Assembly: GCA_903900805.1 (NCBI GenBank)
Contig: CAIUOP010000016.1
Span: 35,041-99,040 of the forward strand
Direction: 5' to 3'
Source of the DNA: an uncultured beta proteobacterium
GTDB taxonomy: Bacteria > Pseudomonadota > Gammaproteobacteria > Burkholderiales > Burkholderiaceae
Length of the DNA: 64,000 nucleotides
Part shown: piece by piece, positions 5,606 through 57,963 of the stretch
Layout of the letters: each line of letters starts with the position of its first letter
Numbering within the stretch: the stretch's first letter is position 1
Translations under genes and position numbers: made by a program
The notes under the pieces: model-generated
The model's database searches: none
What the model was told of the DNA's origin: nothing
Seen by the model: the letters and a program-made list of their open reading frames with translations, nothing else

Positions 5606-6784
5606 TTAATTGAGCGCTTTAGGTTTAGGGCGCTTGCCAGTTTGGATTTTGAGTTCTAACTCTTTGTCTTTGCGAAAAATTCTTAGGCTTGCCTCGTTTC
5701 CAGGACCAATTTGTGCGATTTGATTGAGGAGTTGCTTAACATCCTTAGTTTTATTGCCATTAACAGTTGTTAGAACATCGCCAGGTTTTACCCCGCCACG
5801 AGCTGCAGGGCCGCCTTCCAGCACTCCTGATATAAGTACTCCCTCAGTATTGCCGGGTAGCCCTAAAGATTCAGAAAGCTCTTTTGATAGGTTTTGTGGC
5901 TCAACACCAATCCAGCCTCTAGTAACACTTCCATTTTTCAAAATGGACTCCATTACTTGCTTAGCAAGGTTAACTGGAATGGCAAAACCAATTCCCATCG
6001 AGCCACCATTGTTCGAGAAAATCGCAGTATTGATGCCAATCAGATTACCGCGCGTATCAATGAGTGCCCCTCCTGAATTACCTGGATTAATTGCGGCATC
6101 CGTCTGAATAAAATTTTCAAAAGTATTAATGCCGACATGATCACGACCCATAGCAGAAACAATTCCGGAAGTCACAGTTTGGCCAACTCCAAAAGGATTT
6201 CCAATTGCAAGCACCACATCTCCTACGCGGACGGATTCAATTTTCCCTAGAGTAATTGGAGTCGGTAATTGTTTGGCTTCAATTTTTAGAACCGCAATAT
6301 CTGTCTCTGGATCGCTGCCAACGACCTTTGCTTTTACTTTTCTACCATCAGCAAGCGCAATATCAATCTCATCGGCATCATTAATGACATGATGATTTGT
6401 GAGAATGATGCCCTCTGGGCTGACTAATACCCCAGAGCCCAGACTGGAGATGGGCTCCTCGTCTGGCGCTTGATCACCAAAAAAGAATTTGAATAAGGGG
6501 TCAGCAGGGTTTTGTTTATTGCCTTTACGCGTTTTTGGCTTTGCAGAAACTTTACTTGTAAAGATATTGACAACAGCTGGCATCGATCTTTTTACTGCAT
6601 CGTGATATGAACCAGGATTCAGACTATTGCTTTCGTACGTGCCTTCTTTTAAGGTAACACTGTCGACTATCGAGCCAACACCTTGGCCAGATATCCAATT
6701 GGGTTTTAGGGTTGCAGCAATAAACCACACCGCAAAAAGAATGGTTACTGTTTGCGCAAATAGTAACCATAGGCGATTAAACAT
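5606..6784 (-). CDS. Membrane-anchored HtrA-family serine protease with one PDZ domain
   Basis: Envelope quality-control protease of the S1C (Do) family. The 392-residue protein has an uncleaved-looking N-terminal membrane anchor (about residues 5-25) and a trypsin-like domain. Catalytic residues are His132 (TNHHVI), Asp162 (TDIAVLKI) and Ser237 (NPGNSGGAL). A single C-terminal PDZ domain (about 280-380, with GPAARGGVKPGDVLTTVNG) follows. One PDZ and an N-terminal anchor is the DegS layout, rather than the two-PDZ secreted DegP. DegS cuts the anti-sigma factor RseA in enterics; whether this one does is not shown. It lies 21 bases downstream of mscL on the same strand. Start is ATG 6784. Confidence 0.9.
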   Translation of the reverse strand: MFNRLWLLFAQTVTILFAVWFIAATLKPNWISGQGVGSIVDSVTLKEGTYESNSLNPGSYHDAVKRSMPAVVNIFTSKVSAKPKTRKGNKQNPADPLFKFFFGDQAPDEEPISSLGSGVLVSPEGIILTNHHVINDADEIDIALADGRKVKAKVVGSDPETDIAVLKIEAKQLPTPITLGKIESVRVGDVVLAIGNPFGVGQTVTSGIVSAMGRDHVGINTFENFIQTDAAINPGNSGGALIDTRGNLIGINTAIFSNNGGSMGIGFAIPVNLAKQVMESILKNGSVTRGWIGVEPQNLSKELSESLGLPGNTEGVLISGVLEGGPAARGGVKPGDVLTTVNGNKTKDVKQLLNQIAQIGPGNEASLRIFRKDKELELKIQTGKRPKPKALN

Positions 6785-39541: not shown

Positions 39542-40171
39542 ATGACCCCAATAGACCGCTTCATTGTTGAGTTTGATACCGCACTTCGTTCTGTTGTTGG
39601 TGGAGCAAATGCTCAAAGACCTACTCCAGGCTCTGAATCTGGGGCAAATGCTGCACTCGATTCCGAGCAACGAAAGCATGCAGCAGGGTTGATGCGGATT
39701 AATCACGTTGGTGAAGTTTGTGCACAAGCTTTATATCAGTCACAAAAATTAGTTGCAAGAAATTCAGAAATTAAAGAGATGCTTGATCACTCTGGTCAAG
39801 AGGAAGTGGATCATTTGGCTTGGTGTGAAACTCGTCTCAAAGAGCTTGGCTCGCACACTAGTTATCTTAATCCATTTTGGTATGCAGGATCCTTTGCAAT
39901 CGGCTTGGCAGCAGGCTTAGCGGGCGATAAGTGGAGTTTAGGTTTTGTTGCTGAAACTGAAAAACAAGTTGAGAGTCATCTCGAAAGTCATCTCAAAAAA
40001 TTACCCGAAGAAGATCATCGCTCACGTGCGATCGTTGATCAAATGCGGATGGATGAAATCGAACATGGGCAAGCAGCCTTGCATGCAGGTGGAGCAACCT
40101 TACCTGAGCCAATTCAAAAAATAATGCAAGCAATGTCTAAAGTGATGACAACAACTGCTTACAAAATTTGA
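39542..40171 (+). CDS. coq7: 2-polyprenyl-3-methyl-6-methoxy-1,4-benzoquinol hydroxylase (Coq7)
   Basis: Di-iron hydroxylase of ubiquinone synthesis acting near the last ring modification. The 209-residue protein has iron-ligand Glu and ExxH motifs in a four-helix bundle: [35 protein letters not shown] and [16 protein letters not shown]. The region [20 protein letters not shown] may bind membrane or quinone. It follows bioB closely. The gap after it holds the dcw control region. Confidence 0.95.
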
Positions 40172-40247: not shown

Positions 40248-40267
40248 TACTGTTTTTAAATACAGTA
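40248..40267. promoter_or_regulatory. Perfect LexA-type SOS box
   Basis: TACTGTTTTTAAATACAGTA fits the beta/gammaproteobacterial LexA consensus TACTGT-N8-ACAGTA with both half-sites exact, an 8-base AT-rich centre and an almost perfect palindrome. It lies 77 bases after the coq7 stop and about 235 bases before mraZ. No start codon follows on the + strand before mraZ. A terminator reading is unlikely because no T-run follows. LexA occupancy is inference. Confidence 0.65.
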
Positions 40268-40378
40268 TATTTAAGCATTATCTAGTCATATAGCTAAGAC
40301 CTATTCTTAAGTATATTTTCCAAGCCATTGTTTCAAGTAGCTATTTTATTATCACCATTTTCTGAAGACATAGCGCTA

Positions 40379-40394
40379 AGTGTTTGTAAACACT
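40379..40394. promoter_or_regulatory. 16-bp dyad upstream of the mraZ promoter
   Basis: AGTGTTTGTAAACACT has 7-bp perfect arms around GT. It ends 32 bases before the predicted -35 box, an activator- or repressor-like position. No known regulator is matched. Confidence 0.4.
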
Positions 40395-40426
40395 AGAGAA
40401 TTTCCCAAAAAAATACCCAAAAAGAC

Positions 40427-40455
40427 TTGACCCCCTTATTGCGATCCTCTAAAGT
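40427..40455 (+). promoter_or_regulatory. Sigma70-like promoter of the dcw cluster
   Basis: TTGACC, 17 bases, then TAAAGT. The start of transcription would fall near 40462, giving a short leader to mraZ. The -10 box overlaps the first MraZ-type repeat. Confidence 0.6.
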
Positions 40456-40478
40456 GGGAGGAAGTGTGAAAAAGTGGG
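40454..40478 (+). promoter_or_regulatory. MraZ box: three direct repeats at 10-bp spacing
   Basis: GTGGG at 40454, GTGTG at 40464 and GTGGG at 40474 repeat exactly every 10 bases just before mraZ. This is the known MraZ operator pattern (TGGGN repeats with 5-base spacers). It overlaps the -10 element and start point, consistent with autorepression. The middle repeat is imperfect. Confidence 0.8.
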
Positions 40479-40485
40479 GTAAATG

Positions 40486-40914
40486 GTGTTTCAAGGTGCT
40501 TCAGCTCTCAATTTAGATGCAAAAGGACGGATGTCTGTTCCGGCCAAGCATCGTGACGCCTTGTTAGTTCAAGGCGAGGGTCGCCTCACGCTCACAAAAC
40601 ATCCAGATGGTTGTCTGTTGCTATTTCCAAGACCCGAGTGGGAAAGTTTTAGAGCGCGGGTTGGGCAACTGCCAATGGATGCGCATTGGTGGCGCAGAAT
40701 TTTCCTTGGCAATGCAGCAGAAATTGATTTGGATAATGCTGGCCGAATTTTGGTGAGCCCTGAATTGCGCACAGCAGCAGGAATTGAAAAAGAAGTGATC
40801 TTACTTGGTATGGGCAGTCACTTGGAATTATGGGACGCAGCTACATATGCTGCAAAAGAACAGGCTGCGATTGCACTAGGCATGCCTGAAGCACTCAAGC
40901 AATTTAATTTTTGA
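40486..40914 (+). CDS. mraZ: Transcriptional regulator MraZ
   Basis: AbrB-fold regulator that heads and represses the dcw cluster in E. coli. The protein has the N-terminal [21 protein letters not shown] and a second half-repeat [20 protein letters not shown], the two DXXXR-containing SpoVT/AbrB halves. GTG 40486 (142 residues, starting xFQGAS) is preferred: GGGG lies at better spacing and homologues begin FQGA or FRGA. The ATG just upstream (40483) is possible. It lies 12 bases before rsmH. Confidence 0.93.
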
Positions 40915-40926
40915 TGACAGGGTGCT

Positions 40927-41877
40927 ATGAACATGACTCATCGCCCAGTGTTGCTGGCCGAGGCGGTGACGGCGCTAATCAGTGGTCCGCTTATTCAAAA
41001 ACAAAACGCAGCAAAAAATATTTTGGTAATCGATGGAACATTTGGGCGCGGCGGTCATACGCAAGCTTTACTCAAACAGCTTCCCTCGTCTGCGCGCATG
41101 ATTTCTTTCGACAAGGATTTAGATGCGATCGCAGTGGCACAGAAGATCAACGATCCACGTCTAACCATTGTGCACGACAGTTTTGCGCAGATGGATCAGT
41201 ACGCGCAAGCAGAATCGGTCGATGGAATTTTGTTGGATCTAGGAATCAGTTCGCCACAGGTAGACGAAGCGCATCGGGGCTTCTCCTTTCGTCGCGAGGG
41301 CCCGCTCGATATGCGGATGAATACGGATCAGGGTTTAACTGCTGCAGAGTGGTTAGAGCACGCGCCGCAAGAGGAAATCACGCACGTGATTAAGACTTAC
41401 GGAGAAGAGCGTTTTGCATTTCAGATCGCTAAAGCCATTGTGGCAAAGCGAGAAGAAGGTTTGTCACCAAAAACAACAACACAACTAGCGAGTTTGGTTG
41501 CTAGCGTGGTACGTACACGTGAAGCTGGTCAAGATCCAGCGACTAGAACTTTCCAAGCATTGCGTATTTTTATCAATCGCGAGCTAGAGGATTTGGAGCT
41601 TGGCCTAAAAGCCACTTTGAGCTTATTAAAGCCAGGGGCAAGACTTGCAGTGATTAGCTTTCATTCATTAGAAGATCGTATCGTGAAACAGTTTCTACAG
41701 GCACATTCAAAGGTAGAGCTACCTCGTGGTTTACCTGTGCGCGAAAAGGACTTGCCACAAAGTGCTTTAGAAATTATTGGTCGTGTTAAGCCAAGTGAAG
41801 CTGAGGTTTTAGAAAACCCACGTGCCCGTTCAGCCATCATGCGTATTGCCGAAAAACGGATGGATACATCTGCATGA
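40927..41877 (+). CDS. rsmH: 16S rRNA (cytosine1402-N4)-methyltransferase
   Basis: SAM-dependent methyltransferase of 16S rRNA C1402 (formerly MraW). The 316-residue protein has [26 protein letters not shown] (SAM motif), [22 protein letters not shown] and [17 protein letters not shown]. Second in the dcw cluster; its stop overlaps ftsL by 4 bases. Confidence 0.96.
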
Positions 41878-42140
41878 ATCGCGCTACCTTGACTTTGCTC
41901 GCCTTGTTATTGATTTGTGCCTTATCGCTAGTAGCGGCACAGCAACGTGCGCGAAAACTATTTATTGCTCAAGAGCGCGCCCAAATTGAAGAGCGTAAAT
42001 TAAATCAAGACTGGTTACGCTTGGAATATGAGCAACGTAATCTTTCGAAGTCTGCGCGTATTCGTGATGTTGCCCGCAACCAATTACGCATGTCCCCGAT
42101 TTCTCCTGAACGTACTTTGTACTTAAAGGAGGCTAAATGA
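41874..42140 (+). CDS. ftsL: Cell division protein FtsL
   Basis: Small bitopic divisome protein that works with FtsB and FtsQ to activate FtsWI. The 88-residue product has one N-terminal membrane helix (about 5-22, [19 protein letters not shown]) then a coiled-coil periplasmic domain rich in Arg, Glu and Gln. Identity rests on position between rsmH and ftsI and on topology. It overlaps both neighbours by 4 bases. Confidence 0.9.
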
Positions 42141-43909
42141 GGCGGGTTGGTTTTTCTACTACGCCAAATTTAGTATTACGACTGCCAATGTGGCGGTCGC
42201 GCTTAATGCTATTTCTTTTATTCTTCGTTTTCATGATGCTATTGCTACGCGCGTTCTGGATTCAGGGCCCTGGAAATGCATTCTATGAAGCTAAGGGAGT
42301 ACGAGGAACTCAGCGTGAACTCGAGTTACCTGCAAGCCGTGGAAAAATTTTAGATCGCAATGGTCAAGTCATTGCTACTAGCTTGGAAGCAAAGTCCGTG
42401 ATTGCTTATAACGATACAGTCCCTGATGATTTGGCCGTAGAGAAAGTGCAAAAGCTTGCCGCTCTATTGCAGATAAATGAATCAGAGTTGCGCAAAAAAT
42501 TAAAAGAAGATCGTAAGCAGATTTTCTTAAAGCGTCAGGTTGAACCAGCAATTGCACAACAAATTAAACAATTAGAAATTCCGGGTATTGGCTTAAATAA
42601 CGAATATCGCCGCTTCTATCCAGAGGGTGAAGCGATGGCACACGTCGTTGGCTTTACGAATGTTGAGGATCGCGGCCAAGAGGGCATGGAGCTTTCAAGA
42701 GAAAAAGAACTTGCTGGTCATCCCGGGCAAAGGCGTGTAGTGGTTGATCGCTTAGGCCGTGTTGTTGAGGAAATGGCGATCTTGCAGTTGCCACAAAATG
42801 GTAAAGACTTAAACCTCTCTATTGATAGCAAGATTCAGTATCTGGCTTACAACGCTGTTAAGAGCGCAGTAGAGAAGCACCACGCTAAAGCTGGTGGTGC
42901 TGTAGTTTTAGATACGCAGACAGGTGAAATTTTGGCCTTGGCTAATTACCCAAGTTATAACCCAAATGATCGTAAATATCTCACGGGTGAGCAGCTTCGT
43001 AATCGCGTGTTGACAGATACATTTGAGCCTGGCTCAACCATGAAGCCATTAACGGTTGCAATTGCTTTAGAAAAGGGTGCAGTAAAGCCAGAGACCAATA
43101 TGGTGATTGGTGCTAAGTATCTTATCGGACCTAAACCCATTACTGACACGCACCCTTATGGGAATCTAACAGTTGCAGAGATTATTCAGAAATCCAGCAA
43201 TATCGGTACTGCCAAAATTGCTATTAACAGCCTGTCTCCAGAAGAGATGTGGGATTTTTATACTGCAGTTGGTTTTGGTCAGGCGCCAAAAATTGGCTTC
43301 CCTGGAGCTGTTGCTGGAACAGTGCATCCATTTAAAAAGTGGATGCCAACCGATCAAGCGCGCATTGCATTTGGCTACGGAATTTCTGCATCGCTCTTTC
43401 AGGTAGCGCAGGCCTACACAGTATTCGCACGCGATGGAGAATTAGTGCCGCTCACTATTGAGCGTAGTACTAATTTCAAACCAGGCACGAGAGTACTTTC
43501 TGCGAAGACTGCGATTGAAATGCGCACCATGCTTGAGACCGTAACCGAGCCCGGTGGTACTGCAATTAAGGCTCAGGCTGAAGGCTTTAGAGTTGGAGGC
43601 AAGACAGGGACTGCACATAAACTGGTTGGTAAAGATTATGGCAATAAGTATCGCGCTTACTTTGCTGGCTTAGCACCGATCAGTGCTCCGCGGATTGTGG
43701 TTGCAGTCATGATTGATGAGCCAACCGTTGGTGGTCACTATGGTGGTGAGGTTGCTGCACCAGTGTTCTCAACCATTGTGAGTGAAACACTTAATACTCT
43801 TAATGTATTGCCTGATAACAAAGTGAAGCAAATGGTTTTGCAAGACAAGAATCCTGAAGAGATTCGTACTGCAAATGTACAGACGCAGCAGGTGGTTCTG
43901 AAAAGATGA
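42137..43909 (+). CDS. ftsI: Peptidoglycan transpeptidase FtsI (PBP3)
   Basis: Septal class-B penicillin-binding protein. The 590-residue protein has an N-terminal membrane anchor (about 20-42), a pedestal domain (RGKILDRNGQVIATSL) and the transpeptidase motifs: STMK (SxxK, in FEPGSTMKPLTVA), SSN and KTGT (GGKTGTAHKL). It overlaps ftsL and murE by 4 bases each. Beta-lactams are the expected inhibitors of this family. Confidence 0.96.
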   Translation: MRRVGFSTTPNLVLRLPMWRSRLMLFLLFFVFMMLLLRAFWIQGPGNAFYEAKGVRGTQRELELPASRGKILDRNGQVIATSLEAKSVIAYNDTVPDDLAVEKVQKLAALLQINESELRKKLKEDRKQIFLKRQVEPAIAQQIKQLEIPGIGLNNEYRRFYPEGEAMAHVVGFTNVEDRGQEGMELSREKELAGHPGQRRVVVDRLGRVVEEMAILQLPQNGKDLNLSIDSKIQYLAYNAVKSAVEKHHAKAGGAVVLDTQTGEILALANYPSYNPNDRKYLTGEQLRNRVLTDTFEPGSTMKPLTVAIALEKGAVKPETNMVIGAKYLIGPKPITDTHPYGNLTVAEIIQKSSNIGTAKIAINSLSPEEMWDFYTAVGFGQAPKIGFPGAVAGTVHPFKKWMPTDQARIAFGYGISASLFQVAQAYTVFARDGELVPLTIERSTNFKPGTRVLSAKTAIEMRTMLETVTEPGGTAIKAQAEGFRVGGKTGTAHKLVGKDYGNKYRAYFAGLAPISAPRIVVAVMIDEPTVGGHYGGEVAAPVFSTIVSETLNTLNVLPDNKVKQMVLQDKNPEEIRTANVQTQQVVLKR

Positions 43910-45456
43910 GGGCAGCATTGAATATAGATCCCAATCATCTGATTGAACACTTGCACAGCCTAGCAAATAGCACAGCTAAGGTCAGTGCGGATAGTCGCCA
44001 GGTTCAGTCTGGCGATATCTTTTTTGCTTACCCTGTTGGTCAGGGCAATACATTGCGGGATGGCCGTCAATTTATTGATGCTGCATTGGAGAATGGTGCA
44101 GCAGTAGTGGTGTTTGACCCTCTAGGCTGTAACGCTCAATATCTAGATCACCCAAAATGCATCGCGGTTGAAAACCTGGCAGAAAAAGCTGGCGAATTAT
44201 CTGCTCAATGGTTTGACTATCCAAGTAAACAATTAAAAGTGATTGGTGTAACAGGTACGAACGGTAAAACGAGTATTACGCAATGGTTGGCACAAGCTTT
44301 GGATGAGCCTAATCATCGCACAGCAGTAATGGGTACCTTAGGTACGGGCTTTTCAGGTTCTTTAGTGCAAACTGGCTATACAACTCCAGATGCACCAAAG
44401 CTACAAACCCAATTTAAAGAATTATTGAATGCTGGTGCTAAGCAAGTAGTGATGGAAGTGTCATCACATGCCCTGCATCAGAACCGTGCTGCCGGTACTC
44501 AATTAAATTGTGCTGTGTTCACAAATCTGACACAAGACCATTTAGATTATCACGGCAGTATGGCTAACTATGCCGAGACAAAAGCAAAGTTATTCCAGCT
44601 GATAGGGCTAGAGCATGCCGTCATTAATTTAGATGATGCATTTGGCCGCGAGATTACTATGAAGCTTTTAGCTAAGGGTGATATTAAGGTTTGGGCATAC
44701 ACAGTTAACCAAAGCGCTCTTCAGGGATTTGAAAAGTTTGGTAATCGTTTGCAGCGTATTTACGCAAAAGATAGCATTTTAAATGGTGCCGGATATGACT
44801 CTCTGTTCACCTATGAGGGAGTCGGCAGTAATACCTTACATATTCCTGTATTGGGTGAATTCAATTTAAGCAATGCGCTTGCAGTGTGGGCTGTATTACT
44901 AACCCAAGGCCTCACTTGTGATGAGGCAAGCAAGCGAGTAAATCAATTGCGTCCTGTACTTGGACGCATGGAATTAATTCAAGTGGGTAAGCAACAAAAA
45001 GCGGAAGGTTTGTTGGTAGTAGTTGATTACGCTCACACACCCGATGCTTTGCAAAAGGCCTTACAGGCATTAGCCCCCATTGCGCAGCAACGTGGTGGAA
45101 AAATTTGGTGTGTATTTGGCTGTGGTGGCGATCGTGATATTGGTAAACGTCCTCAGATGGGTGCGGTGGCTCAGCACTATGCAGATCAAATCATTATTAC
45201 TAGCGATAACCCTAGATCTGAAGAGCCACAGGCAATTATGGAAATGATTCTGGGGGGTATCAGCCAAGAATCTTCAAATGTGCAAATGATTGTTGATCGT
45301 GCTGCAGCGATCATGGCTGCTGTGCGTCATGCTGCCCCTCAAGATATTGTCTTGGTTGCAGGCAAAGGCCATGAAACTACCCAAGAAATTAATGGTAAGA
45401 AATTTGATTTCTCCGACCAAGAGCATATTCGCTTGGCTAGCGGAGGTATAGCTTAA
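43906..45456 (+). CDS. murE: UDP-MurNAc-L-Ala-D-Glu:meso-DAP ligase
   Basis: Adds the third residue of the peptidoglycan stem. The 516-residue protein has the ATP loop VTGTNGKTSITQWLA, the substrate-site HQNRAAGTQLN and DHLDYHGSMANYAETKAKLF, and the DNPR motif (ITSDNPRSEEP) that marks meso-diaminopimelate specificity. It shares its last base with the murF ATG. Confidence 0.96.
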   Translation: MRAALNIDPNHLIEHLHSLANSTAKVSADSRQVQSGDIFFAYPVGQGNTLRDGRQFIDAALENGAAVVVFDPLGCNAQYLDHPKCIAVENLAEKAGELSAQWFDYPSKQLKVIGVTGTNGKTSITQWLAQALDEPNHRTAVMGTLGTGFSGSLVQTGYTTPDAPKLQTQFKELLNAGAKQVVMEVSSHALHQNRAAGTQLNCAVFTNLTQDHLDYHGSMANYAETKAKLFQLIGLEHAVINLDDAFGREITMKLLAKGDIKVWAYTVNQSALQGFEKFGNRLQRIYAKDSILNGAGYDSLFTYEGVGSNTLHIPVLGEFNLSNALAVWAVLLTQGLTCDEASKRVNQLRPVLGRMELIQVGKQQKAEGLLVVVDYAHTPDALQKALQALAPIAQQRGGKIWCVFGCGGDRDIGKRPQMGAVAQHYADQIIITSDNPRSEEPQAIMEMILGGISQESSNVQMIVDRAAAIMAAVRHAAPQDIVLVAGKGHETTQEINGKKFDFSDQEHIRLASGGIA

Positions 45457-46904
45457 TGTCTGTAATGACAACGCTTGCTCAAGTGCATGCCATGTTGCCA
45501 GGAAGTACGCTTCTGAATATTTCTGTAGAAGATGCTCAGTTATTAAATATTTCAAAGGTTGGAACTGATAGCCGTCAGATTGACTCTAAAGAATTATTTA
45601 TAGCTTTGGCGGGTGAGCGCTTTGATGCACATGACTTTTTATCCGATGTTGCTAAAGCAGGAGCAGCAGCAGTGCTCATTAGTAACAAAGATAGATGCCC
45701 TACAAATCTGCCTGCTGTTTTCGTTGCTGATACTCGCATTAGCCTGGGAGTGTTGGCAAAAGCTTGGCGTACTAATCACCTTATTCCATTGGCTTTGGTG
45801 ACTGGCAGTAATGGCAAGACGACTGTTAAAGAAATGATTGCTTCGATATTCAAGGCTGCGGTAGGTGAGCAGCATACGCTTGTCACTAAAGGCAATCTAA
45901 ATAATGATATTGGTCTACCGCTCACCTTATTAAAGCTCTGCTCTACAGATCGGCTTGCCGTAGTTGAGTTAGGTATGAATCATCCAGGTGAAACTGCTCA
46001 GTTAGCGAACATTGCACAGGCAAATATTGCATTGATTAACAATGCACAGCGTGAGCATCAAGAGTTTATGGCTACTGTAGCTGCAGTGGCACAAGAGCAC
46101 TCCAATGCAATTTCTACTCTGCCAAATAATGGTATTGCAGTCTTCCCAGCAGACTCTGAGTTTGCAGGTGTCTGGCATGAAGCTGCTGCTGGACGTAAGG
46201 TAATCGATTTTATTCTGCTATCTGGCAAGACCACATTACAGGCTGCAGTGATGGGGCGCTTATTAAGTAATGGCCACGTACAAGTGCAGACCGAGTTAGG
46301 TTCTATAGAGGTCCAATTAAATGCTTTAGGTAGTCACAATGCACGGAATGCATTAGCTGCCAGCGCTGTTGCAGTGGCAGCTGGGGTCAGTCTCGAGAAA
46401 ATCAAGCAAGGTCTTGAATCATTTGCGCCTGTAAATGGACGTATGCAGGCCAAGAAGATTGATCCTAATCACACTTTAATTGATGACAGCTACAACGCTA
46501 ATCCAGATTCAGTTAGAGCAGCAATTGATGCACTAAAGCAGTCAGGCAATATATCTTGGTTAGTTTTAGGTGATATGGGTGAAGTTGGCAACCAAGGGCC
46601 TGAGTTCCATCGCGAAGTTGGAGCTTACGCTGCCGAGCAGGGAGTCACTAAATTATTTGCTTTAGGTGAACAGTGTCAATTTGCTATTCAAGGTTTTAAC
46701 GATGTTAAGAAGAATGGGGCATCTGGCACCAGTGCAAAACATTTTTCTGAGATGGATAGTCTCATTTTGCAGTTGAGGGATGCATTACATGCACAGTCAA
46801 CTGGTAGCAATGAGCATTTAAATATTTTGGTTAAAGGTTCACGTTTTATGCGCATGGAGCGCGTAGTGCAAGCCTTGTTAGAGGAGGCTAAAACATGCTC
46901 TTAA
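45456..46904 (+). CDS. murF: UDP-MurNAc-tripeptide:D-Ala-D-Ala ligase
   Basis: Adds D-Ala-D-Ala to complete the UDP-MurNAc-pentapeptide. The 482-residue protein has [36 protein letters not shown] and [16 protein letters not shown]. The start overlaps the murE stop as TAATG. The C-terminal end overlaps mraY by 10 bases. Confidence 0.95.
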
Positions 46905-48064
46905 TCTTGGCGCAATGGCTACAGGATGATTTTGGATTCTTCCGAGTCTTTAACTACATCACTTTTAGGGCGGTGATGGCAACAGTTACGGCTTTGTTAA
47001 TTGGTTTGGCTGCAGGCCCATGGGTTATTCGTAAGTTGACTGCCTTGAAAATGGGTCAAGCCGTTCGCACTGATGGACCACAAACCCATTTAGTCAAATC
47101 TGGTACTCCAACAATGGGTGGAGTTTTGATCCTAATTGGTATTTTTGTATCCTGCATGTTGTGGGCAGACTTAAGCAATCGCTTTATCTGGATTGTGATG
47201 ATTGTCACTTTTGGATTTGGTGCAATTGGCTGGGTAGATGACTATCGGAAGGTTGCTCATAAAGATCCCAAGGGAATGGCCTCGAGAGAGAAATTCCTTT
47301 GGCAAACTTTGATTGGTTTATTTGCGGCGATCTACTTAGCATTCTCAGTCTCAGAGGTTAATAACCTCAAAGTACTCCAACTTTTCTACGAATGGCTTAG
47401 AAGTGGTTTTGCTTTAGATCTTCCAGCAAAAACGAATTTGCTATTGCCATTCATCAAAGAGGTTAGTTATCCACTAGGAATGTTGGGCTTCATCATCTTG
47501 AGTTACTTGGTGATTGTTGGTAGCAGTAATGCAGTGAACCTGACTGATGGCCTCGATGGCCTAGTGATCATGCCTGTCATTTTGGTGGGTGCTGCATTAG
47601 GTGCATTTGCTTATGTGATGGGTAATGCAATCTATGCCAAATATTTAATATTTCCCTATATTCCAGGTGCTGGTGAGTTATTGATCTTCTGTGGTGCCAT
47701 GGGTGGGGCAGGTTTAGCTTTCCTTTGGTACAACGCGCATCCTGCACAAGTCTTTATGGGCGATGTTGGAGCACTTGCTCTAGGCGGCGCACTTGGAACC
47801 ATCGCGGTGATTGTTCGCCAAGAAATTGTGCTCTTTGTGATGGGTGGAATATTCGTGGCAGAAACTGTTTCAGTAATGATGCAAGTATTGTGGTTCAAGT
47901 TAACTAAGAAATATTCTGGTGAGGGCCGCCGTATTTTTCGCATGGCCCCACTTCATCATCATTTTGAATTAGGTGGCTGGAAAGAAACGCAAGTAGTTGT
48001 TCGCTTCTGGATCATCACCATCCTATTAGTATTAATTGGCTTATCTAGCCTGAAATTACGGTGA
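46895..48064 (+). CDS. mraY: Phospho-MurNAc-pentapeptide transferase
   Basis: Integral enzyme forming lipid I on undecaprenyl phosphate. The 389-residue protein has about ten helices, with the catalytic signatures [42 protein letters not shown] and the HHHFELGGW motif near the C-terminus. It sits between murF and murD, overlapping each. Confidence 0.97.
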
Positions 48065-49701
48065 GCCTAAAAACCAATATGTTGAACTTACAAAATACTT
48101 TTGCTAATCCTGCTTTTATAGCTGATGCAGGCTATCAGGCTCCCTATCGATTTTTGATTATGGGCCTAGGTGAGTCGGGGTTTGCTATGGCTAAGTGGTG
48201 TCTGCGCAATAGCGCTGCCGTTCGTTTGGTAGATACACGAGATCAGTCTCAATTCTCTGAACGCCAGAATACCTGGCTTGATGAATTAAAAATAGCCGGG
48301 CTGAACGATATTCAGTTTGGGCCATTGAGTGATGGGCTATTAACCGATATTGATGTTATTGGGATCAGCCCTGGTTTATCTCCACTCCAGGAGCCTACTC
48401 AATCATTCTTGGTGAAGGCTAGAAAAGCTAGGATTGATGTTTGGAGCGAGATCGAATTTTTTGCACGTGCAATTTCAGCCTTAGCTCGCATGGCACAAGC
48501 AAACAACTCTTCTTATTCAACATCAGTGTTAGCAATTACTGGTACTAATGGGAAAACTACTACTACTGCCTTAACTGGACAGCTTTGTGAGCGTGCCGGC
48601 AAGAAGGTTGCGATAGCTGGAAATATTAGCCCCGCAGCATTAGATAAATTGATTACTTGTCTGGATGGGGCCGACCAAATTGAAGATATGCCTGATATCT
48701 GGGTGCTGGAATTATCTAGCTTCCAATTGGTTTATACATATACCCTCAATGCAACCGCATCGACTGTTCTTAATATCACTCAAGATCATTTAGATTGGCA
48801 TGGTGATATGCAGACCTATGCAGATGCAAAAGCAAAAATATTTGGTGCGGACACCATTTGCATCTTGAACCGCGACGACTCAATTGTGATGAATTTACTT
48901 TCTGATGATCAAAAATCAGAAAAGTCGATTGTGACTTTTGGCTCTAATAGACCCAATGAGCAAGGTGCTTTTGGTATCGAGCATGACTTACGCGCTGGTG
49001 GAATCGATTGGCTAGTATGGGCAGAGATAGATGAAGATTTTGAGCCAAAGCCTAAACGTCGTCGTAAATCTGACGTAATGAAAGAAGATGAGCCGCTACG
49101 TTTAAAGCGTTTAATTCCGGCTGATGCACTCAGAATTCGTGGTCGCCATAATGCATTGAATGCACTAGCTGCGCTGGCTTTGGCTAGATCTGCTAACTTG
49201 CCTATGAATGTTCTATTGCATGGTTTACGTGATTATCACGGAGAGCCTCATCGTGTTCAGAGTGTTGCGATCGTCAATGATGTGGAATATATCGATGACA
49301 GTAAAGGGACTAACGTTGGTGCAACTGTAGCTGCGTTAAATGGCTTAGGTAGCAATGAATCTGGTAAAAGGATTTGGTTAATTGTGGGCGGTGATGGCAA
49401 GGGGCAAGACTTTAGCCCATTACGCGAACCTGCGCTGCGCTTTGTTAAAGGCGTTTTCTTGATTGGCAAAGATGGCGCTGCAATTGGTGAAGCCCTTGGT
49501 CATGACGTTCCTTGCACGATGAGCGGTAACTTAGAGACTGCGCTTAGGACGGCAGCAGAACAAGCGCAGTCTGGTGATTTAGTTTTACTTTCTCCTGCTT
49601 GTGCGAGTTTTGACCAGTTCAAAGATTATGTTGCCCGTGCCCAGGCATTTGTTAGTGAAGTTGAAGAATTAGGGATGCGTTTTGAAGGAGCTCAAGCGTG
49701 A
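48061..49701 (+). CDS. murD: UDP-MurNAc-L-Ala:D-Glu ligase, with an insertion
   Basis: Adds D-glutamate to UDP-MurNAc-L-Ala. The 546-residue protein has [52 protein letters not shown] and [13 protein letters not shown]. It is about 100 residues longer than E. coli MurD; part is a charged insert near residues 320-355 ([20 protein letters not shown]) between the central and C-terminal domains. The start is GTG 48061, coupled to the mraY stop; ATG 48079 is an alternative. Confidence 0.94.
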
Positions 49702-50969
49702 AGCTAAAAGATAAATTTTTCCCAGACAATCGTTTAGGTTTAGATCGTTTCTGGAATTTTTCTCGAGGCGAGATTGATAACTTCCGTACCGGCTTAAGAG
49801 ATGCGGTATCTGGAGTTGAGCAAACCCGCTCACGCATGATGGAGTACGACCAACTCCTTGTATGGGCGGTGCTCTCTCTTATGTTGATTGGTTTAGTAAT
49901 GGTGTATTCAGCATCGATTACTTTAGCTGATGGCCCTAAGTATGCAAACTACAGTAGTAATTTTTTCTTAATTCGTCATGTGATTTCTTTGGTAATTGCA
50001 GCTGGAGTAGGTATTTGGGTCTTCAAGATACCAACGAAGATGTGGGATCGCTATTCTCCATTGATCTTTGGATTTACCGTCCTGCTATTAATTGCAGTTC
50101 TTATTCCTGGTATTGGCAAAGGAGTCAATGGGGCTAAGCGCTGGATTCCACTAGGCTTAATGAACTTTCAGCCATCCGAGTTAATGAAATTTGCAGCTAT
50201 CATTTTTGCTGCAAGTTATACCGTGCAACGTCAAGAGTACTTGCACTCATTTGTTAAGGGCATGTTGCCAATGGGTATTGCAGTTGCAGTAGTTGGCGGT
50301 CTATTGATGGCAGAACCTGACCTAGGTGCATTCGTAGTGGTCTCCTTAATTGCATTTGGGATCTTATTCTTGGGCGGTATTAATGCCAAATTATTTGGTG
50401 GTTTGATCGTGGTTGGTTTAATGAGTGGCGCAGCGATGATCGCTCTCTCTCCATTCCGTCGCGGTCGCATGCTTGCGTTTATGGATCCATGGCAGGCGGA
50501 TAACGCTGCAAATAAAGGTTATCAGCTAACCCATTCCTTGATGGCCTTTGGTCGTGGGGAGTGGTTTGGTACTGGACTTGGTGGCAGCGTAGAAAAATTA
50601 CATTATTTGCCTGAAGCGCATACCGATTTCATCATGGCAGTGATTGGTGAAGAGCTTGGCTTCGTTGGTGTAGTTGTCATGATCTTCTTATTTTATTGGA
50701 TCGTGCGACGTGCTTTCTTAATAGGTCGAACTGCTTTGCAATTGGATCGCAGTTTTGCGGGTCTTGCGGCTAAGGGTGTTGCTATCTGGATTGGTTGGCA
50801 AGCCTTTATTAATATGGGTGTGAACTTAGGCTTATTACCTACCAAGGGTTTGACATTGCCATTAGTGAGTTACGGTGGATCTGCAATTTTGATGAATACT
50901 ATTGCGATTGCCATGCTGCTACGAATTGATTATGAGAATCGTATTTTGATGCGCGGAGGGAAGTTGTGA
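49698..50969 (+). CDS. ftsW: Septal peptidoglycan glycosyltransferase FtsW
   Basis: SEDS-family polymerase that works with FtsI at the septum. The 423-residue protein has about ten helices, a long cytoplasmic N-terminus (about 55 residues), and signatures AKRWIPLGLMNFQPSELMKFA, HTDFIMAVIGEELGFVG and LTLPLVSYGGSAILMN. It overlaps murD and murG by 4 bases. Confidence 0.95.
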   Translation: MKLKDKFFPDNRLGLDRFWNFSRGEIDNFRTGLRDAVSGVEQTRSRMMEYDQLLVWAVLSLMLIGLVMVYSASITLADGPKYANYSSNFFLIRHVISLVIAAGVGIWVFKIPTKMWDRYSPLIFGFTVLLLIAVLIPGIGKGVNGAKRWIPLGLMNFQPSELMKFAAIIFAASYTVQRQEYLHSFVKGMLPMGIAVAVVGGLLMAEPDLGAFVVVSLIAFGILFLGGINAKLFGGLIVVGLMSGAAMIALSPFRRGRMLAFMDPWQADNAANKGYQLTHSLMAFGRGEWFGTGLGGSVEKLHYLPEAHTDFIMAVIGEELGFVGVVVMIFLFYWIVRRAFLIGRTALQLDRSFAGLAAKGVAIWIGWQAFINMGVNLGLLPTKGLTLPLVSYGGSAILMNTIAIAMLLRIDYENRILMRGGKL

Positions 50970-52039
50970 CAAAACCCTCAATTTTAGTAATGGCTGGTGG
51001 TACGGGTGGACATATCTTCCCGGGTCTTGCTGTCGCTGAATATTTGCGGATCTGCGGTTGGAATGTGTCATGGCTGGGCAATCAAAATGGCATGGAATAC
51101 CGCTTAGTGAAGTCTTGCGATTTTCCATTTGAGGCTATTGAGTTTGGTGGTTTGCGTGGCAAGGGGCTCAAAGCTAAATTGATGCTGCCAATCAATTTAA
51201 TGCGCGCTTGCTTTCAAAGTTGGAAGATTATGCGCCGCATAAAACCATCGGTGGTCTTAGGTATGGGCGGCTACATTACCTTCCCTGGTGGCTTAGTAAC
51301 TAAGTTATTAAAGCGCCCCTTAGTGTTGCATGAATCTAACTCTATAGCAGGAAGTGCTAATCGTGCACTCGCAAAAATCGCCATGCGTACATTGACTGGC
51401 TTCCCAAATACGATGGCGGATGCCGAGTGGGTAGGTAACCCTATTCGTGAAGAATTTGATCATATCTCAGTACCTGCATTGCGTTACGAACAGCGTCAAG
51501 GTCCTCTATCTATATTAGTGGTGGGCGGAAGCTTGGGTGCGGCCGCTTTAAATGAAAATATTCCTGCAGCGTTAGCATTGATTTCTCAAGATGCGCGTCC
51601 TAAGATCATTCATCAAGCAGGCGATAAGCATTTAGCCGAATTGCAAAAACGCTATGCTGATTTAGGTGTCGAGGCCAAGGTTCTTCCCTTTATTGACGAT
51701 ATGCCATCTGCATATGCACAGGCAGACCTTGTGATATGTCGAGCTGGAGCAATGACGGTGTCAGAGCTAGCTGCTTGTGGCGTTGCTGCTTGCTTAATTC
51801 CTTTCCCATTTGCAATTGATGATCACCAAACTGCTAATGCAAAATTTTTAGCCGATGCTAATGCTGCTATTTTATTGCCGCAGAAATATCTTAATCCACA
51901 AGATTTAGCATTAATGATCCAAAACTTTAATCGTGCGGACCTCAAAGAAATGGCCCTACGTGCGCACGCTTTAGCTAAACCACATGCAACCTTGCGAGTA
52001 GCTGAGGTTTGCGCTGATTGTGCGGGAGTAGGCATATGA
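50966..52039 (+). CDS. murG: Lipid II synthase MurG
   Basis: GT-B glycosyltransferase adding GlcNAc to lipid I on the inner leaflet. The 357-residue protein has [47 protein letters not shown] and [26 protein letters not shown], the family set. Starts GTG 50966 and overlaps murC by 4 bases. Confidence 0.96.
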
Positions 52040-53472
52040 AGCATATCGTTCAGCAAATCCATTTCATTGGGATCGGCGGTGCCGGTATGAGCGGGATTGC
52101 TGAAGTTCTATTGAATTTAGGATATCAAGTAACTGGATCTGATCTAGCTGAAGGTGCGGCAACGAAGCGCCTAAAGGAGCTGGGCGCAGTAATTCATATT
52201 GGACATGACCCTAAAAATATTGGTACTGCAGAGGCAGTGGTCATTTCAACTGCTGTAGCAGGCAATAATCCTGAGGTACTCGCAGCGCGCGCAGCAAAAA
52301 TTCCGGTTATTCAAAGAGCGGTGATGTTAGGCGAATTAATGCGCTTAAAACAAGGCATCGCTATTGCTGGAACCCACGGTAAAACCACCACAACTAGTTT
52401 AGTTGCATCGGTGTTAGCGGAGGGCGGCCTAGATCCAACCTTTGTGATTGGCGGCAAATTGAATTCCGCAGGTGCTAATGCCCGCTTAGGTCGTGGTGAT
52501 TTCATTGTGGTTGAAGCCGATGAATCTGATGCCTCCTTCTTGCAGCTCTTTCCCGCAATGGAAGTGGTTACCAATATTGACGCTGATCATATGGATACCT
52601 ATCAGCATGATATGGCGAGACTGAAGCAAGCATTTGTGCAATTTATTCAGCGCATGCCATTTTATGGTGTAGCAGTCTTATGTATTGATGATGCTAATGT
52701 GCGTGACATTATTCCGTTTGTATCACAACCTGTATTGCGTTACGGCTTGTCAGATGATGCGGATATTAGAGCTAGCAATGTGCGTGCTGATGGAACTCGT
52801 ATGCACTTTACGGTGGAGCGCCGCACAGTTCGTAGGCATGGTAATAAGCCCGGCCCACTCAATGTGACACTCAATTTACCTGGCCTGCACAATGTGCGCA
52901 ATGCTCTGGCCGCTATTGGTATTGCCACAGAGCTAGGTGTTGGAGATGAAGCAATCACTAAGGCGCTTGCTGAATTTAGTGGTGTGGGCCGTCGCTTCCA
53001 GCGTTATGGCGAAATCCCTCTTGCCTCTGGGGGCAGTTTCACATTGATTGACGATTATGGACATCACCCAGTGGAGATGGCAGCAACTTTAGAGGCTGCT
53101 CGCGGCGCCTTCCCAGAGCGCCGTTTGGTGTTGGCATTTCAGCCACATCGCTTTACAAGAACACGAGATTGTTTTGGGGAGTTTGTTCAAGTCCTCAGAA
53201 GCTTTGATGCCTTAGTGTTAACCGAGGTTTATCCCGCTGGCGAGGCAAAAATTCCAGGTGCAGATGGTAAGAGTTTGATGAAGGCAGCGCTTGCAGAAGA
53301 GAAGGTTACAAAGGGTTTCTTAAATTCTGCTGCGGTAGTGTTTGCAGCAAATATTGCCGAGATGCCGGAAAAGTTAGCACAGGTATTAAAAGATGGCGAT
53401 GTCTTAATTACGATGGGTGCAGGGTCAATCTCTGCACTGCCACATACCTTAGCGGAGGCAAAAAGTGTCTAA
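52036..53472 (+). CDS. murC: UDP-MurNAc:L-alanine ligase
   Basis: First amino acid addition to UDP-MurNAc. The 478-residue protein has [54 protein letters not shown] and [17 protein letters not shown] 52036, overlapping the murG TGA (ATGA), is chosen over the track start six codons earlier. Confidence 0.96.
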
Positions 53473-54478
53473 GTTAGATTCAGGCCTCGGTATGTGGGGT
53501 GATCGTGTGAAGTCCGAGTTATCCAAATTGGATGCAAAATCACTGGGGCGTGTCGGGGTTTTATTGGGCGGACGTTCTGGTGAGCGAGAAATTTCTCTGA
53601 TGTCGGGTAATGGTGTTTTAGAGGCCTTACTCTCTAAGGGTGTAGATGCTCATGCTTTTGATCCAGGCCTTCGATGCCCAACTGAACTAGCAAAAGAAAA
53701 ATTTGATCGCGTATTCATCTCTTTGCATGGTCGTTATGGCGAAGATGGAACTATCCAAGGTTTATTAGAGTTATTAAATCTACCGTATACCGGTAGTGGT
53801 GTATTGGCTTCTGCTTTATCCATTGATAAGATTGCTACCAAACAAATTTGGCTAAGTAATGGTTTATCTACTCCAGAGTTTGAAGAACTCACCGCAGCTA
53901 GTAACTGGAATGCAGTAGTAAAAAAATTAGGCTTACCTTTGATTGTGAAACCAGCACATGAAGGCTCTTCACTTGGCTTGACTAAAGTAAAGTCTGTAGA
54001 TGAATTACCAGCTGCCTACCAACTGGCTGCAAGCTTAGATAAAAAAGTCATTGCAGAGACTTGTATTGTTGGTGATGAGTTAACTTGTCCATTGGTTGGG
54101 CAAGGCGAAACAGCGGAAGCATTACCAGTGATTAAAATTATTCCGCCACAAGCCAATTATGATTTTCATCATAAGTATTTCTCAAATGAAACCCAATACT
54201 TATGCCCTACGGGGCTTACTGCTGAGGTCAACGAGCACGTCCAAGAATTAGCTTTGGCTGCTTATAAAGCATTGGGCTGTCGCACATGGGGTCGCGCTGA
54301 TGTCATGCTTGATCAAAAAACTGGTAAGCCTTACTTATTGGAGATGAATACCTCACCCGGCATGACTTCTCATTCCTTGGTGCCGATGGCAGCTAAAGCC
54401 GCTGGCATTGAGTATGCCGACCTAGTCTTATGGTTACTTAAGCAAACTTTGCAAGAACAAGAGAGCGCTACTGAATGA
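53465..54478 (+). CDS. ddl: D-alanine:D-alanine ligase
   Basis: Makes the D-Ala-D-Ala dipeptide used by MurF. The 337-residue ATP-grasp protein has [47 protein letters not shown] and [18 protein letters not shown]. It begins at GTG 53465, overlapping murC by 8 bases, and overlaps ftsQ by 4. Confidence 0.96.
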
Positions 54479-55332
54479 GTACGCTTTTAGACCGATTCGG
54501 AGACATCTTCTCTATCATCATGTCCCCCCTTTGGAATTATCCAGAGCGGATGCAAAAACTCAGTCGTTTTTTGATGCGCTGCTTCATCGTGCTGCTACTG
54601 ATTGGAGTTCTGGTTTGGTTAAGTCAAAGACCTGTCTTCACTTTGAAGCAAATTCAAGTAGAGCCTGTTGCCGGTCAAACGCTTCAGCACATTAATAAAT
54701 CTCTTGTGAAGCGCCAGGTAATAGAAACCGTGCAAGGTAACTTCTTTAGCGTGCGTTTAGAGGATGTTAAACGGGGTTTTGAGAGCATGCCTTGGGTGCG
54801 CCACGCTAATGTCCGTCGCGTGTGGCCCAATGGGTTGATTGTCAATATTGAAGAACAAAAGCCATTTGCTACTTGGGGTGGCGAAAGCAGTAATACCCTC
54901 ATGAATACGCATGGTGAGTTATTTGCTGGGCGCGTTTCAGAGCTTGTTGATGACAAACACTTATTTGATTTTTCGGGTCCAGATGATGCTGGCAAAGAAG
55001 TGATGAGTCTTTATGAAAAAGCCAATAACTGGTTTAAGCCATGGAATGTAGAGGTAGTGAGCTTGGCATTAACTGAGCGCTATGCGTGGCACGTCAAGCT
55101 TTCTAATGGCATGAAAGTGGAATTTGGACGCGATGAAGAGAGCTCTGACAAGAACTTAACAGAGGAACGTGTAGCGCGCTTGTTTAAGTACTGGCCACAA
55201 GTTCAAGAGAAATGGGCAAACCGAATTGATGCAGTAGACCTACGTTATGCAAATGGTTTCGCAGTTCATCTTGCCTCTACAAGTATGAAAAAGAATGACG
55301 TAGATGGAAAAAAAAGTGAGCTTAAGCAATGA
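54475..55332 (+). CDS. ftsQ: Cell division protein FtsQ
   Basis: Bitopic divisome hub that recruits FtsB and FtsL. The 285-residue protein has one membrane helix (about 37-57), a POTRA domain ([20 protein letters not shown]...) and a beta domain with [10 protein letters not shown] and [13 protein letters not shown], matching FtsQ. It lies between ddl (4-base overlap) and ftsA (9-base gap). Confidence 0.95.
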
Positions 55333-55341
55333 GGAATGTGA

Positions 55342-56571
55342 ATGAGTAAAGATAATCGCGACCTGTTGGTGGGTTTAGACATTGGAACCTCTAAGGTAGT
55401 TGCCCTGGTAGCAGAGTTAACTCCTGATGGTCAATTCAATGTGGTTGGTGTCGGCCAAACCGCCTCTAAGGGGTTGAAGAAGGGCGTTGTCGTTAATATC
55501 GAAGCAACTGTTCAATCGATCCAGAAGGCTCTAGAAGAGGCCGAAGTGATGGCTGACCGCCAGATTGTCCAGGTGTTTACTGGCATTGCTGGAAATCACA
55601 TTGTCAGCTTTAACTCGAGCGGTATGGTTGCTATTCGCGATAAAGAAGTCGGTGATGGTGATGTTGAGCGTGTGCTAGAAACCGCTAAGGCGATCAATAT
55701 TCCAACTGATCAACAAATTTTACACATCCTCGTTCAAGAATTTATTATCGATGGCCAAGAAGATGTACGTGAACCTATTGGTATGAGTGGTTTACGTTTA
55801 GAGGTGAAGGTTCATATTGTGACGGGCGCTGTCAGTGCTGCACAAAATATTGTGAAGTGTGTGCGTCGTTGCGGTTTAGAAGTAAATGACCTGATTCTGC
55901 AGCCTTTGGCATCCAGTTTGGCCGTCCTTACTGATGATGAAAAAGAACTTGGCGTTGTCTTAGTTGACATTGGCGGCGGTACTACAGATATCGCTATTTA
56001 TTGCCAAGGATCCATTCGTCACACAGCAGTGATTCCAATTGCAGGCGATCAAATTACTAACGATATTGCAATGGCATTGCGGACGCCAACTATCGATGCA
56101 GAAGATTTAAAAATTGCATACGGAATTGCGCGTCAAGAGATGGCCGATTCAGCTGCCATGATTGATGTGCCGGGCGTGGGAGATCGTGAGCCACGTCCAA
56201 TGTCTAAGCAAGCACTTGCTGCTGTGATTGAGCCGCGCGTTGAAGAGCTCTTTACTTTAGTGAGAGGTGTAGTGCGTGATTCTGGTTATGAAGATATGGT
56301 TTCTTCTGGGATTGTGCTCACTGGTGGTACAGCCTTAATGCCAGGAATGGTTGAGTTGGCTGAGCAGGTCTTTTTAAGGCCGGCTCGAATTGGTACACCA
56401 GAGTACCGCGGTCACTTACATGAAGTTCTTCGGAGCCCTAGATACGCCACCAGTATTGGCTTGTTGATGGAAGGTCAAGCGCAATTTTTGCGCGGTCGTC
56501 GTGTTTCTCAATCAGGCGCACTGCAAGGAGTGATGTCGCGCATGAAGGAATGGTTTGCAGGAAATTTTTGA
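55342..56571 (+). CDS. ftsA: Cell division protein FtsA
   Basis: Actin-like protein linking FtsZ filaments to the inner membrane. The 409-residue protein has the phosphate-1 motif VGLDIGTSKVVALVAEL, the phosphate-2 VVLVDIGGGTTDIAIY and the adenosine loop IVLTGGTALMPGM. The C-terminal amphipathic helix MSRMKEWFAGNF is the membrane-targeting sequence. It precedes ftsZ by 48 bases. Confidence 0.96.
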   Translation: MSKDNRDLLVGLDIGTSKVVALVAELTPDGQFNVVGVGQTASKGLKKGVVVNIEATVQSIQKALEEAEVMADRQIVQVFTGIAGNHIVSFNSSGMVAIRDKEVGDGDVERVLETAKAINIPTDQQILHILVQEFIIDGQEDVREPIGMSGLRLEVKVHIVTGAVSAAQNIVKCVRRCGLEVNDLILQPLASSLAVLTDDEKELGVVLVDIGGGTTDIAIYCQGSIRHTAVIPIAGDQITNDIAMALRTPTIDAEDLKIAYGIARQEMADSAAMIDVPGVGDREPRPMSKQALAAVIEPRVEELFTLVRGVVRDSGYEDMVSSGIVLTGGTALMPGMVELAEQVFLRPARIGTPEYRGHLHEVLRSPRYATSIGLLMEGQAQFLRGRRVSQSGALQGVMSRMKEWFAGNF

Positions 56572-56619
56572 TTTTTTTCGTCGTCGTTAATGTTGTAAGT
56601 AATTTACCTAGGAGGGTAT

Positions 56620-57963
56620 ATGGAATTTGAAATGTTAGATCAAGATACAGCTGGCAAAACCATTATTAAAGTGGTTGGAGTCGGTGGAGCTGGTGGCAAT
56701 GCTGTCCAGCATATGATTCGTCGCGGAGTGAGCGGCGTAGAGTTCATTTGCATGAACACCGATGCTGGCGCCTTACAGCGTTCTGAGGCATCTGTGAATT
56801 TGCAACTGGGCTCTAGCGGATTAGGCGCAGGTGCAAAACCAGAGATAGGTGCAGCTTCTGCGGAAGAGGCGCGCGCCCGCATTGCCGATACTTTGCAAGG
56901 GGCGCATATGGTGTTCATTACTGCCGGTATGGGCGGCGGTACTGGCACTGGTGCGGCTCCAATCGTTGCTCAAGTAGCAAAAGAAATGGGTATTTTGACT
57001 GTTGGTGTTATCAGCAAACCATTTGACTTTGAGGGCGTGAAGCGCTTGAAGGTGGCAGAGAATGGTGCTGCAGAACTTGAGTCTTATGTTGATTCCTTGA
57101 TTGTTGTGCTCAATGAAAAGCTCTTTGAAGTTATGGGTGAAGACGCTGAGTTTGATAAAGCCTTTGCTTGTGCAGATGATGTATTGCATAACGCAGTCTC
57201 TGGCATTGCAGAAATCATTAATGTTCAAGGTTTGATTAACGTTGACTTTGAGGATGTGAAGACTGTTATGGGTGAGCAAGGTAAAGCGATGATGGGAACA
57301 GCAACTGTCTCCGGTATGGATCGCGCTCGTTTGGCTGCTGAAGCTGCAGTTGCATCTCCACTGCTAGAGGGCGTTGATTTATCTGGAGCGCGTGGAGTAT
57401 TAGTAAATATTACTGCTAGCCGTTCATTGAAATTGTCTGAAACACGTGAAGTAATGGCAGCAATTCGTGGCTATGCTGCTGATGATGCAACCGTGATCTT
57501 CGGTACAGTGTATGACGAAACTTTGGGTGATGCCTTACGTGTGACTGTGGTTGCTACTGGCTTGAATAATCCCCAAGCCCGTCAAAACCATCAGCCAGAA
57601 GTAGTATGGAGACAAGCTACGGGTACTAGCGATGCAATGCCAACGATGGCTGATCTGAATACTTTTGCCCCTACTAGCGCATCTGCTGTTATGAGTAAGG
57701 TAGGCTTAGATTCTGCTGTGAGTACAAGCGCAGGTATGGCTTTGACTGGTTCTGGCACCGCTCCATCAATGGCAGCTCAACCAGCAGCTAGTAGCGGCGT
57801 TGATTACAGTCAATATGATTTGCCACGGGTATTTCGCAGTTCCCGTGAGGCGTCTCCTGCACCTACTTTAGGCGCAGATAGCTCACCTCAGGCTAAATCC
57901 ATGCTGGATAAGGGGGCTGATTACTATGAAATTCCAGCCTTTTTACGTAAGCAAGCAGACTAA
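56620..57963 (+). CDS. ftsZ: Cell division protein FtsZ
   Basis: Tubulin-like GTPase forming the Z ring. The 447-residue protein has GVGGAGGNAVQHMIRRGVSG, the tubulin signature GGGTGTGAAPIVA, and the catalytic T7 loop NVDFEDVKTVM. A long Ala/Ser-rich linker (about 330-430) precedes the C-terminal DYYEIPAFLRKQAD, the conserved peptide that binds FtsA. A strong ribosome site (AGGAGGG) precedes the ATG, fitting high expression. Confidence 0.97.
   Translation: MEFEMLDQDTAGKTIIKVVGVGGAGGNAVQHMIRRGVSGVEFICMNTDAGALQRSEASVNLQLGSSGLGAGAKPEIGAASAEEARARIADTLQGAHMVFITAGMGGGTGTGAAPIVAQVAKEMGILTVGVISKPFDFEGVKRLKVAENGAAELESYVDSLIVVLNEKLFEVMGEDAEFDKAFACADDVLHNAVSGIAEIINVQGLINVDFEDVKTVMGEQGKAMMGTATVSGMDRARLAAEAAVASPLLEGVDLSGARGVLVNITASRSLKLSETREVMAAIRGYAADDATVIFGTVYDETLGDALRVTVVATGLNNPQARQNHQPEVVWRQATGTSDAMPTMADLNTFAPTSASAVMSKVGLDSAVSTSAGMALTGSGTAPSMAAQPAASSGVDYSQYDLPRVFRSSREASPAPTLGADSSPQAKSMLDKGADYYEIPAFLRKQAD

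Follow-up and report, generated by a model that had tools for sequence, protein, structure and literature searches.

A Predicted LexA Operator Ahead of mraZ and the Division Gene Cluster in Most Polynucleobacter

Results

The LexA Box, Its Regulator, and the dcw Cluster

In most Polynucleobacter, the division cluster is headed by what its sequence identifies as a perfect LexA site. In the genome analyzed here, this box very probably functions as a LexA operator at the head of the complete dcw cluster, from mraZ to ftsZ, and the sequence is best read as placing a transcript that enters mraZ under SOS control. The operator reading follows from the exact consensus, present alongside the boxes of recA and umuDC, from a conservation footprint in which arms exceed core and core exceeds flanks, from a matching LexA, from the lack of any gene, terminator, or structured RNA between box and mraZ, and from the distribution of the box among genomes. 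Coordinates refer to the window, i.e., the whole stretch of 64,000 nucleotides that was analyzed (Table 1).

Table 1. Features around the LexA box, with positions in the window
Feature	Position	Strand	Basis
coq7	39542..40171	+	same-strand gene upstream of the box
LexA operator (SOS box), TACTGTTTTTAAATACAGTA	40248..40267	+	exact consensus; arms conserved; motif also at recA and umuDC
Candidate -10 hexamer TATATT of a LexA-controlled promoter, overlapping the box end	40266..40271	+	inferred
Conserved leader/upstream region separating the box from the mraZ promoter	40288..40426	+	77-94% conserved by segment
Separate sigma70-type mraZ promoter, TTGACC-N17-TAAAGT	40427..40455	+	both hexamers 100% conserved
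Three MraZ-box-like repeats, GTGGG/GTGTG/GTGGG, 10-bp spacing	40454..40478	+	sequence; conserved
mraZ	40483..40914	+	TIGR00242 109 bits, PF02381 101.6 bits
Rest of dcw: rsmH, ftsL, ftsI, murE, murF, mraY, murD, ftsW, murG, murC, ddl, ftsQ, ftsA, ftsZ	40927..57963	+	contiguous ORFs
Small ORF family loci of Polynucleobacter relatives: L214, L215, L226-L230, L284-L299, and others			

The box lies between the end of coq7 and the start of mraZ and is a CTGT-N8-ACAG palindrome, the type of LexA operator found in γ- and β-proteobacteria. An earlier note on this DNA had described it as an exact match to TACTGT-N8-ACAGTA; this is right for both arms, including the outer TA/TA, and for its position. The same note was also correct that mraZ is the next gene on the same strand and leads an intact cluster: the dcw ORFs, named here by sequence and gene order, are unbroken, on one strand, and mostly overlapping through ftsZ. 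The conserved start of mraZ is more likely the GTG at 40486 than the ATG at 40483.

Pattern searches of the genome (a 1.9-Mb assembly, 92% complete) found the exact motif at four sites in three loci: mraZ, recA (twice), and umuDC. The recA box is TACTGTTTTTATATACAGTA, and the exact motif at umuDC lies in its promoter. Near-identical recA-upstream segments with the same box occur at the ends of contigs C37 and C54 (G000; L006, L008), a doubling that is probably strain variation in the assembly. The comparison with other SOS boxes of the genome, which the earlier note had proposed, thus shows a motif shared with recA and umuDC, and a version with two mismatches at lexA (TGCTGTATACAATCCCAGTA, on C34), which overlaps the -10 of that gene and differs little among the four genomes in which it was read. 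In two complete relatives (G012 and G036), exact sites are found at mraZ, umuDC, and recA only, two of these sites being assigned through matching box sequence. A non-complemented control pattern gave one forward match in total in eight relatives. Six boxes of the analyzed genome with one or two mismatches were read (position 6746 of the window and L278-L282): five are within or at the start of coding sequences, and the sixth, on C39, is intergenic with two mismatches. In another genome (G010, L272), a further exact intergenic box precedes a membrane-protein-like gene by 94 bp.

The genome codes for its own LexA (TIGR00498, 232 bits; PF01726 also matched). In the alignment with LexA of Escherichia coli, the stretch NAAEEHL is identical and the Ala-Gly pair is conserved; these are the recognition helix and the cleavage site, as established for the E. 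coli protein. A lexA or related match is present in 60 of the 61 genomes of the genus scanned, a count that includes a few partial assemblies in which only a related umuD-type match was seen. In one genome (G043, C19:40545-41237), the lexA match runs through one TAG stop codon. In 21 Polynucleobacter genomes, no match to SulA (PF03846) exceeded its cut-off, with a positive E. coli control, which agrees with the setting assumed in the earlier note, i.e., a division link without a SulA-type inhibitor.

Conservation and Distribution of the Box

Conservation was computed with weighting over 57 distinct mraZ-upstream sequences of box-bearing Polynucleobacter. The CTGT/ACAG arms are 99.6% conserved and all 12 arm positions 97%. 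The N8 core reaches 75%, and the flanks are lower still, with 54% over the 60 bp before the box and 69% over the 20 bp after it. The core varies (TTTTAAAT, TTATTAAT, ATATATAA) and the arms remain constant. Because the arms are invariant over deep divergence while adjoining bases turn over, loss of the box is selected against. Its position before the orthologous genes is also conserved, at 232-245 bp from the start of mraZ across the clade. Conservation among close relatives, on which the proposal of SOS control had been made to depend, is therefore strong. Every mraZ locus checked in the clade is preceded by a sequence with at most two mismatches to the box. This includes four genomes (G002, G033, G054, and G017) that the exact pattern did not pick up or whose loci are degenerate, and in which the box has one or two mismatches. 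In G017, the reading frame of mraZ is broken, being split into two overlapping matches (L264), and the box has decayed to two mismatches; with a genome of 1.6 Mb, this may be a reduced symbiont.

In the tree of coq7-mraZ-rsmH, the mraZ box marks one monophyletic clade of Polynucleobacter (UFBoot 91), and two deep lineages of the genus lack it. A search of 338 genomes of the family, from 24 other genera, did not find it. The arrangement had been called unusual. It is less so than supposed, given that gut Gram-positives were already reported to have a LexA site ahead of mraZ (PMC3998124).

A Small LexA-Boxed ORF in the Sister Lineages

In the lineages lacking the mraZ box, exact LexA boxes are found at recA, at umuDC, and at an unannotated membrane-type ORF of 32-40 aa. 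An example is MKTLIANPIWSVLSGLVIWMVFAEKPGEWQRKEWICSRSE; the ORF has a ribosome site, and the LexA box lies 51-113 bp upstream. Members of the family have a hydrophobic stretch and the invariant pattern W..F.E..GE....EW.C, and they have no Pfam or NCBIfam match. None was found outside the genus, as the single match among 130 genomes of the family belongs to the same genus. The promoters of these boxed ORFs are clear and share the layout seen at the mraZ box, and at several of them the -10 has the same overlapping placement. The family is likely a new one of SOS-induced small membrane proteins, and its size, hydrophobic stretch, and LexA control suggest, by analogy with SidA, that it may act as a division inhibitor.

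The small ORF was found in 49 of the 186 genomes of the genus scanned. It has a LexA box in 28 of these (27 exact, and one with a single mismatch, in G041) and none in the other 21, where the best candidates have three to five mismatches. The mraZ box is absent from all 16 genomes checked among the 28, and present in all nine checked among the 21. In the genome analyzed here, and in most of the box clade, the small ORF is not detectable. This mutual exclusion amounts to a single event on the tree, and hence the genomes cannot be counted as statistically independent tests of the association. By parsimony, the distribution suggests that the ancestor held a LexA-controlled small ORF, that the mraZ box was gained once, and that the small ORF then lost its box and disappeared from most of the clade. 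The link between SOS and division thus appears, from these sequences, to have shifted a single time, the leader of dcw taking the place of a small SidA-like protein. A stronger version is that a checkpoint was rewired once: LexA control would have left a dedicated small membrane division inhibitor of the new SidA-like family (32-40 aa) for a promoter added to the dcw operon, and damage would adjust division through the dosage of MraZ and dcw without any dedicated inhibitor. We hold this version tentatively, at somewhat less than even chances.

From the Box to mraZ: Proposed Mechanism and Alternatives

Two promoters may serve mraZ. One is the sigma70-type promoter directly before the gene, whose two hexamers, TTGACC and TAAAGT, are shared with Cupriavidus, Pandoraea, Trinickia, and Ralstonia, and which is followed by repeats whose sequence and 10-bp spacing are those typical of MraZ boxes. 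Since this is a standard mraZ promoter, the LexA box is an addition some 160 bp further upstream. The other is a candidate promoter at the box itself. Its putative -10 (TATATT) has columns conserved at T100/A82/T98/A76/T89/T89%, and no clear -35 accompanies it in the window. The earlier proposal of SOS control is thus supported in part: the box is conserved and shares its motif with recA and umuDC, but a separate LexA-free promoter also drives mraZ.

We consider it probable that the LexA operator represses a second, upstream promoter of mraZ-dcw, which damage opens, with a change in MraZ/dcw dosage and in the timing of division, and that this link replaced control of a small protein; promoter activity, induction by damage, and the effect on division are the predicted parts of this model. 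In undamaged cells, mraZ would be transcribed from the downstream promoter, with its own MraZ boxes. Upon DNA damage, LexA would be cleaved and the upstream promoter opened, and a transcript with a leader of ~200 nt would cross the MraZ boxes into mraZ and the genes for division and wall synthesis. The altered dosage of MraZ and dcw would then alter division timing, by either arrest or boost. In evolution, the mraZ box would have taken over from LexA control of the 32-40 aa membrane-type protein that is still perfectly boxed in sister lineages.

Alternatively, LexA at the box might act as a roadblock or insulator that keeps transcription of the coq7 operon from running on into mraZ; damage would then lift the block, with no promoter at the box. 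Consistent with this, coq7 and mraZ are codirectional, no terminator was found between them (nor between box and mraZ), the region upstream of the box where a -35 is expected is the poorly conserved one, and in some species the box directly follows the coq7 stop. However, the -10-like hexamer at the end of the box is better conserved than the sequence flanking it, LexA usually acts by promoter occlusion, and clear promoters of the same layout precede the boxed small ORFs. We regard a roadblock as unlikely.

It is decidedly unlikely that LexA uses the box to little consequence, with nearly all dcw mRNA supplied from downstream. The mraZ promoter proper is strong, conserved, and equipped with MraZ boxes, and it may be the dominant one, but selection against loss of the box, as seen in invariant arms amid the turnover of their neighbors, argues that the box matters.

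A third alternative is that what the box controls is not mraZ but a short RNA or peptide, induced by SOS and made from the leader (40268-40425). The leader is well conserved and of fixed length, and, contrary to the earlier claim that no start codon lies in between, it contains a 22-aa ORF starting with TTG at 40328 and a 16-aa ORF starting with GTG at 40380. The first is kept in 38 of the 57 sequences and absent in 19; neither ORF is in all 57 and neither has a ribosome site, so that no other gene is credible between box and mraZ, and a peptide gene was rejected. A structured leader RNA was likewise rejected, as the region has no Rfam match and nothing unusual in its folding (z-score -0.5). 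Together with the missing terminator, this makes a short product very improbable. The homologous core of the leader also occurs in species without the box, which fits ordinary promoter-upstream DNA, as opposed to a product controlled by LexA. A minus-strand target of the box was rejected as well, the only ORFs there being within coq7. Finally, a chance palindrome or the site of another protein, for which one might invoke the AT-rich spacer, is hardly credible given the motif shared with the recA box, the conservation footprint, and the near absence of control patterns.

The region upstream of the mraZ promoter has features of its own. A CTAAG..TTGTT-like motif is repeated at 40288-40415, and other Burkholderiaceae have elements resembling it. 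A palindrome at 40380-40393 (GTGTTTGTAAACAC) becomes GTGATTGTAATCAC in the deep lineages. The repeats and the palindrome are probably a site of a further dcw regulator.

Discussion

Most known links between the SOS response and division rely on a dedicated inhibitor protein: SulA in E. coli, YneA in Bacillus subtilis, and SosA in Staphylococcus aureus are SOS-induced division inhibitors. In Caulobacter, this is the case for SidA, of 29 aa (PMC4211646). The mraZ box resembles these systems in that LexA would couple damage to division. It differs from them in the controlled unit, which in Polynucleobacter would be the dcw operon itself instead of a dedicated inhibitor. In the sister lineages, the small ORF with the LexA box resembles SidA in size and control only. 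In the anatomy of the box, the closest likeness is to the E. coli recA promoter, where the -10 overlaps the right end of the LexA box; the target gene is another one, and in Polynucleobacter the -35 is weak or absent in the window.

Although MraZ is highly conserved, no trigger is known for this regulator (PMC9395523). It represses dcw in E. coli (PMC9395523, PMC8475190), where dcw downregulation accompanies filamentation (PMC9395523). In the β-proteobacterium Neisseria elongata it raises dcw expression, and its overexpression leads to shorter cells (PMC9395523). If the model is true, LexA would supply a physiological input for MraZ. LexA would control the division operon itself, and the switch away from an older target, a small protein, could be traced, which would make a clear case of natural rewiring of a checkpoint.

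The literature search found no paper linking Polynucleobacter and the SOS regulon. A published analysis of predicted SOS regulons in β-proteobacteria covers Burkholderia, Ralstonia, Cupriavidus, and Variovorax (PMC3323433); the first three share with Polynucleobacter the bacterial family and the type of LexA motif. A search of its text turned up no cell-division target for the group. The nearest precedent comes from gut Gram-positive metagenomes, in which a LexA site was found upstream of mraZ and bound in vitro by LexA of B. subtilis (Cornish et al. 2014, PMC3998124), and whose authors proposed that links between SOS and division evolved repeatedly. The likeness lies in a LexA operator before a mraZ homolog and in the proposed tie between SOS and division. 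The gut system belongs to another phylum with another LexA motif, and is known from metagenomic fragments without conservation across a genus. In Polynucleobacter, one clade of the genus has a fixed box of the β-proteobacterial CTGT-N8-ACAG type, and there is evidence for the SOS target that it replaced. Hence, a LexA site before mraZ was already known (PMC3998124), and what is new is its fixation at the level of a clade in a β-proteobacterium, the anatomy of the box, and the small-protein target that it appears to have replaced.
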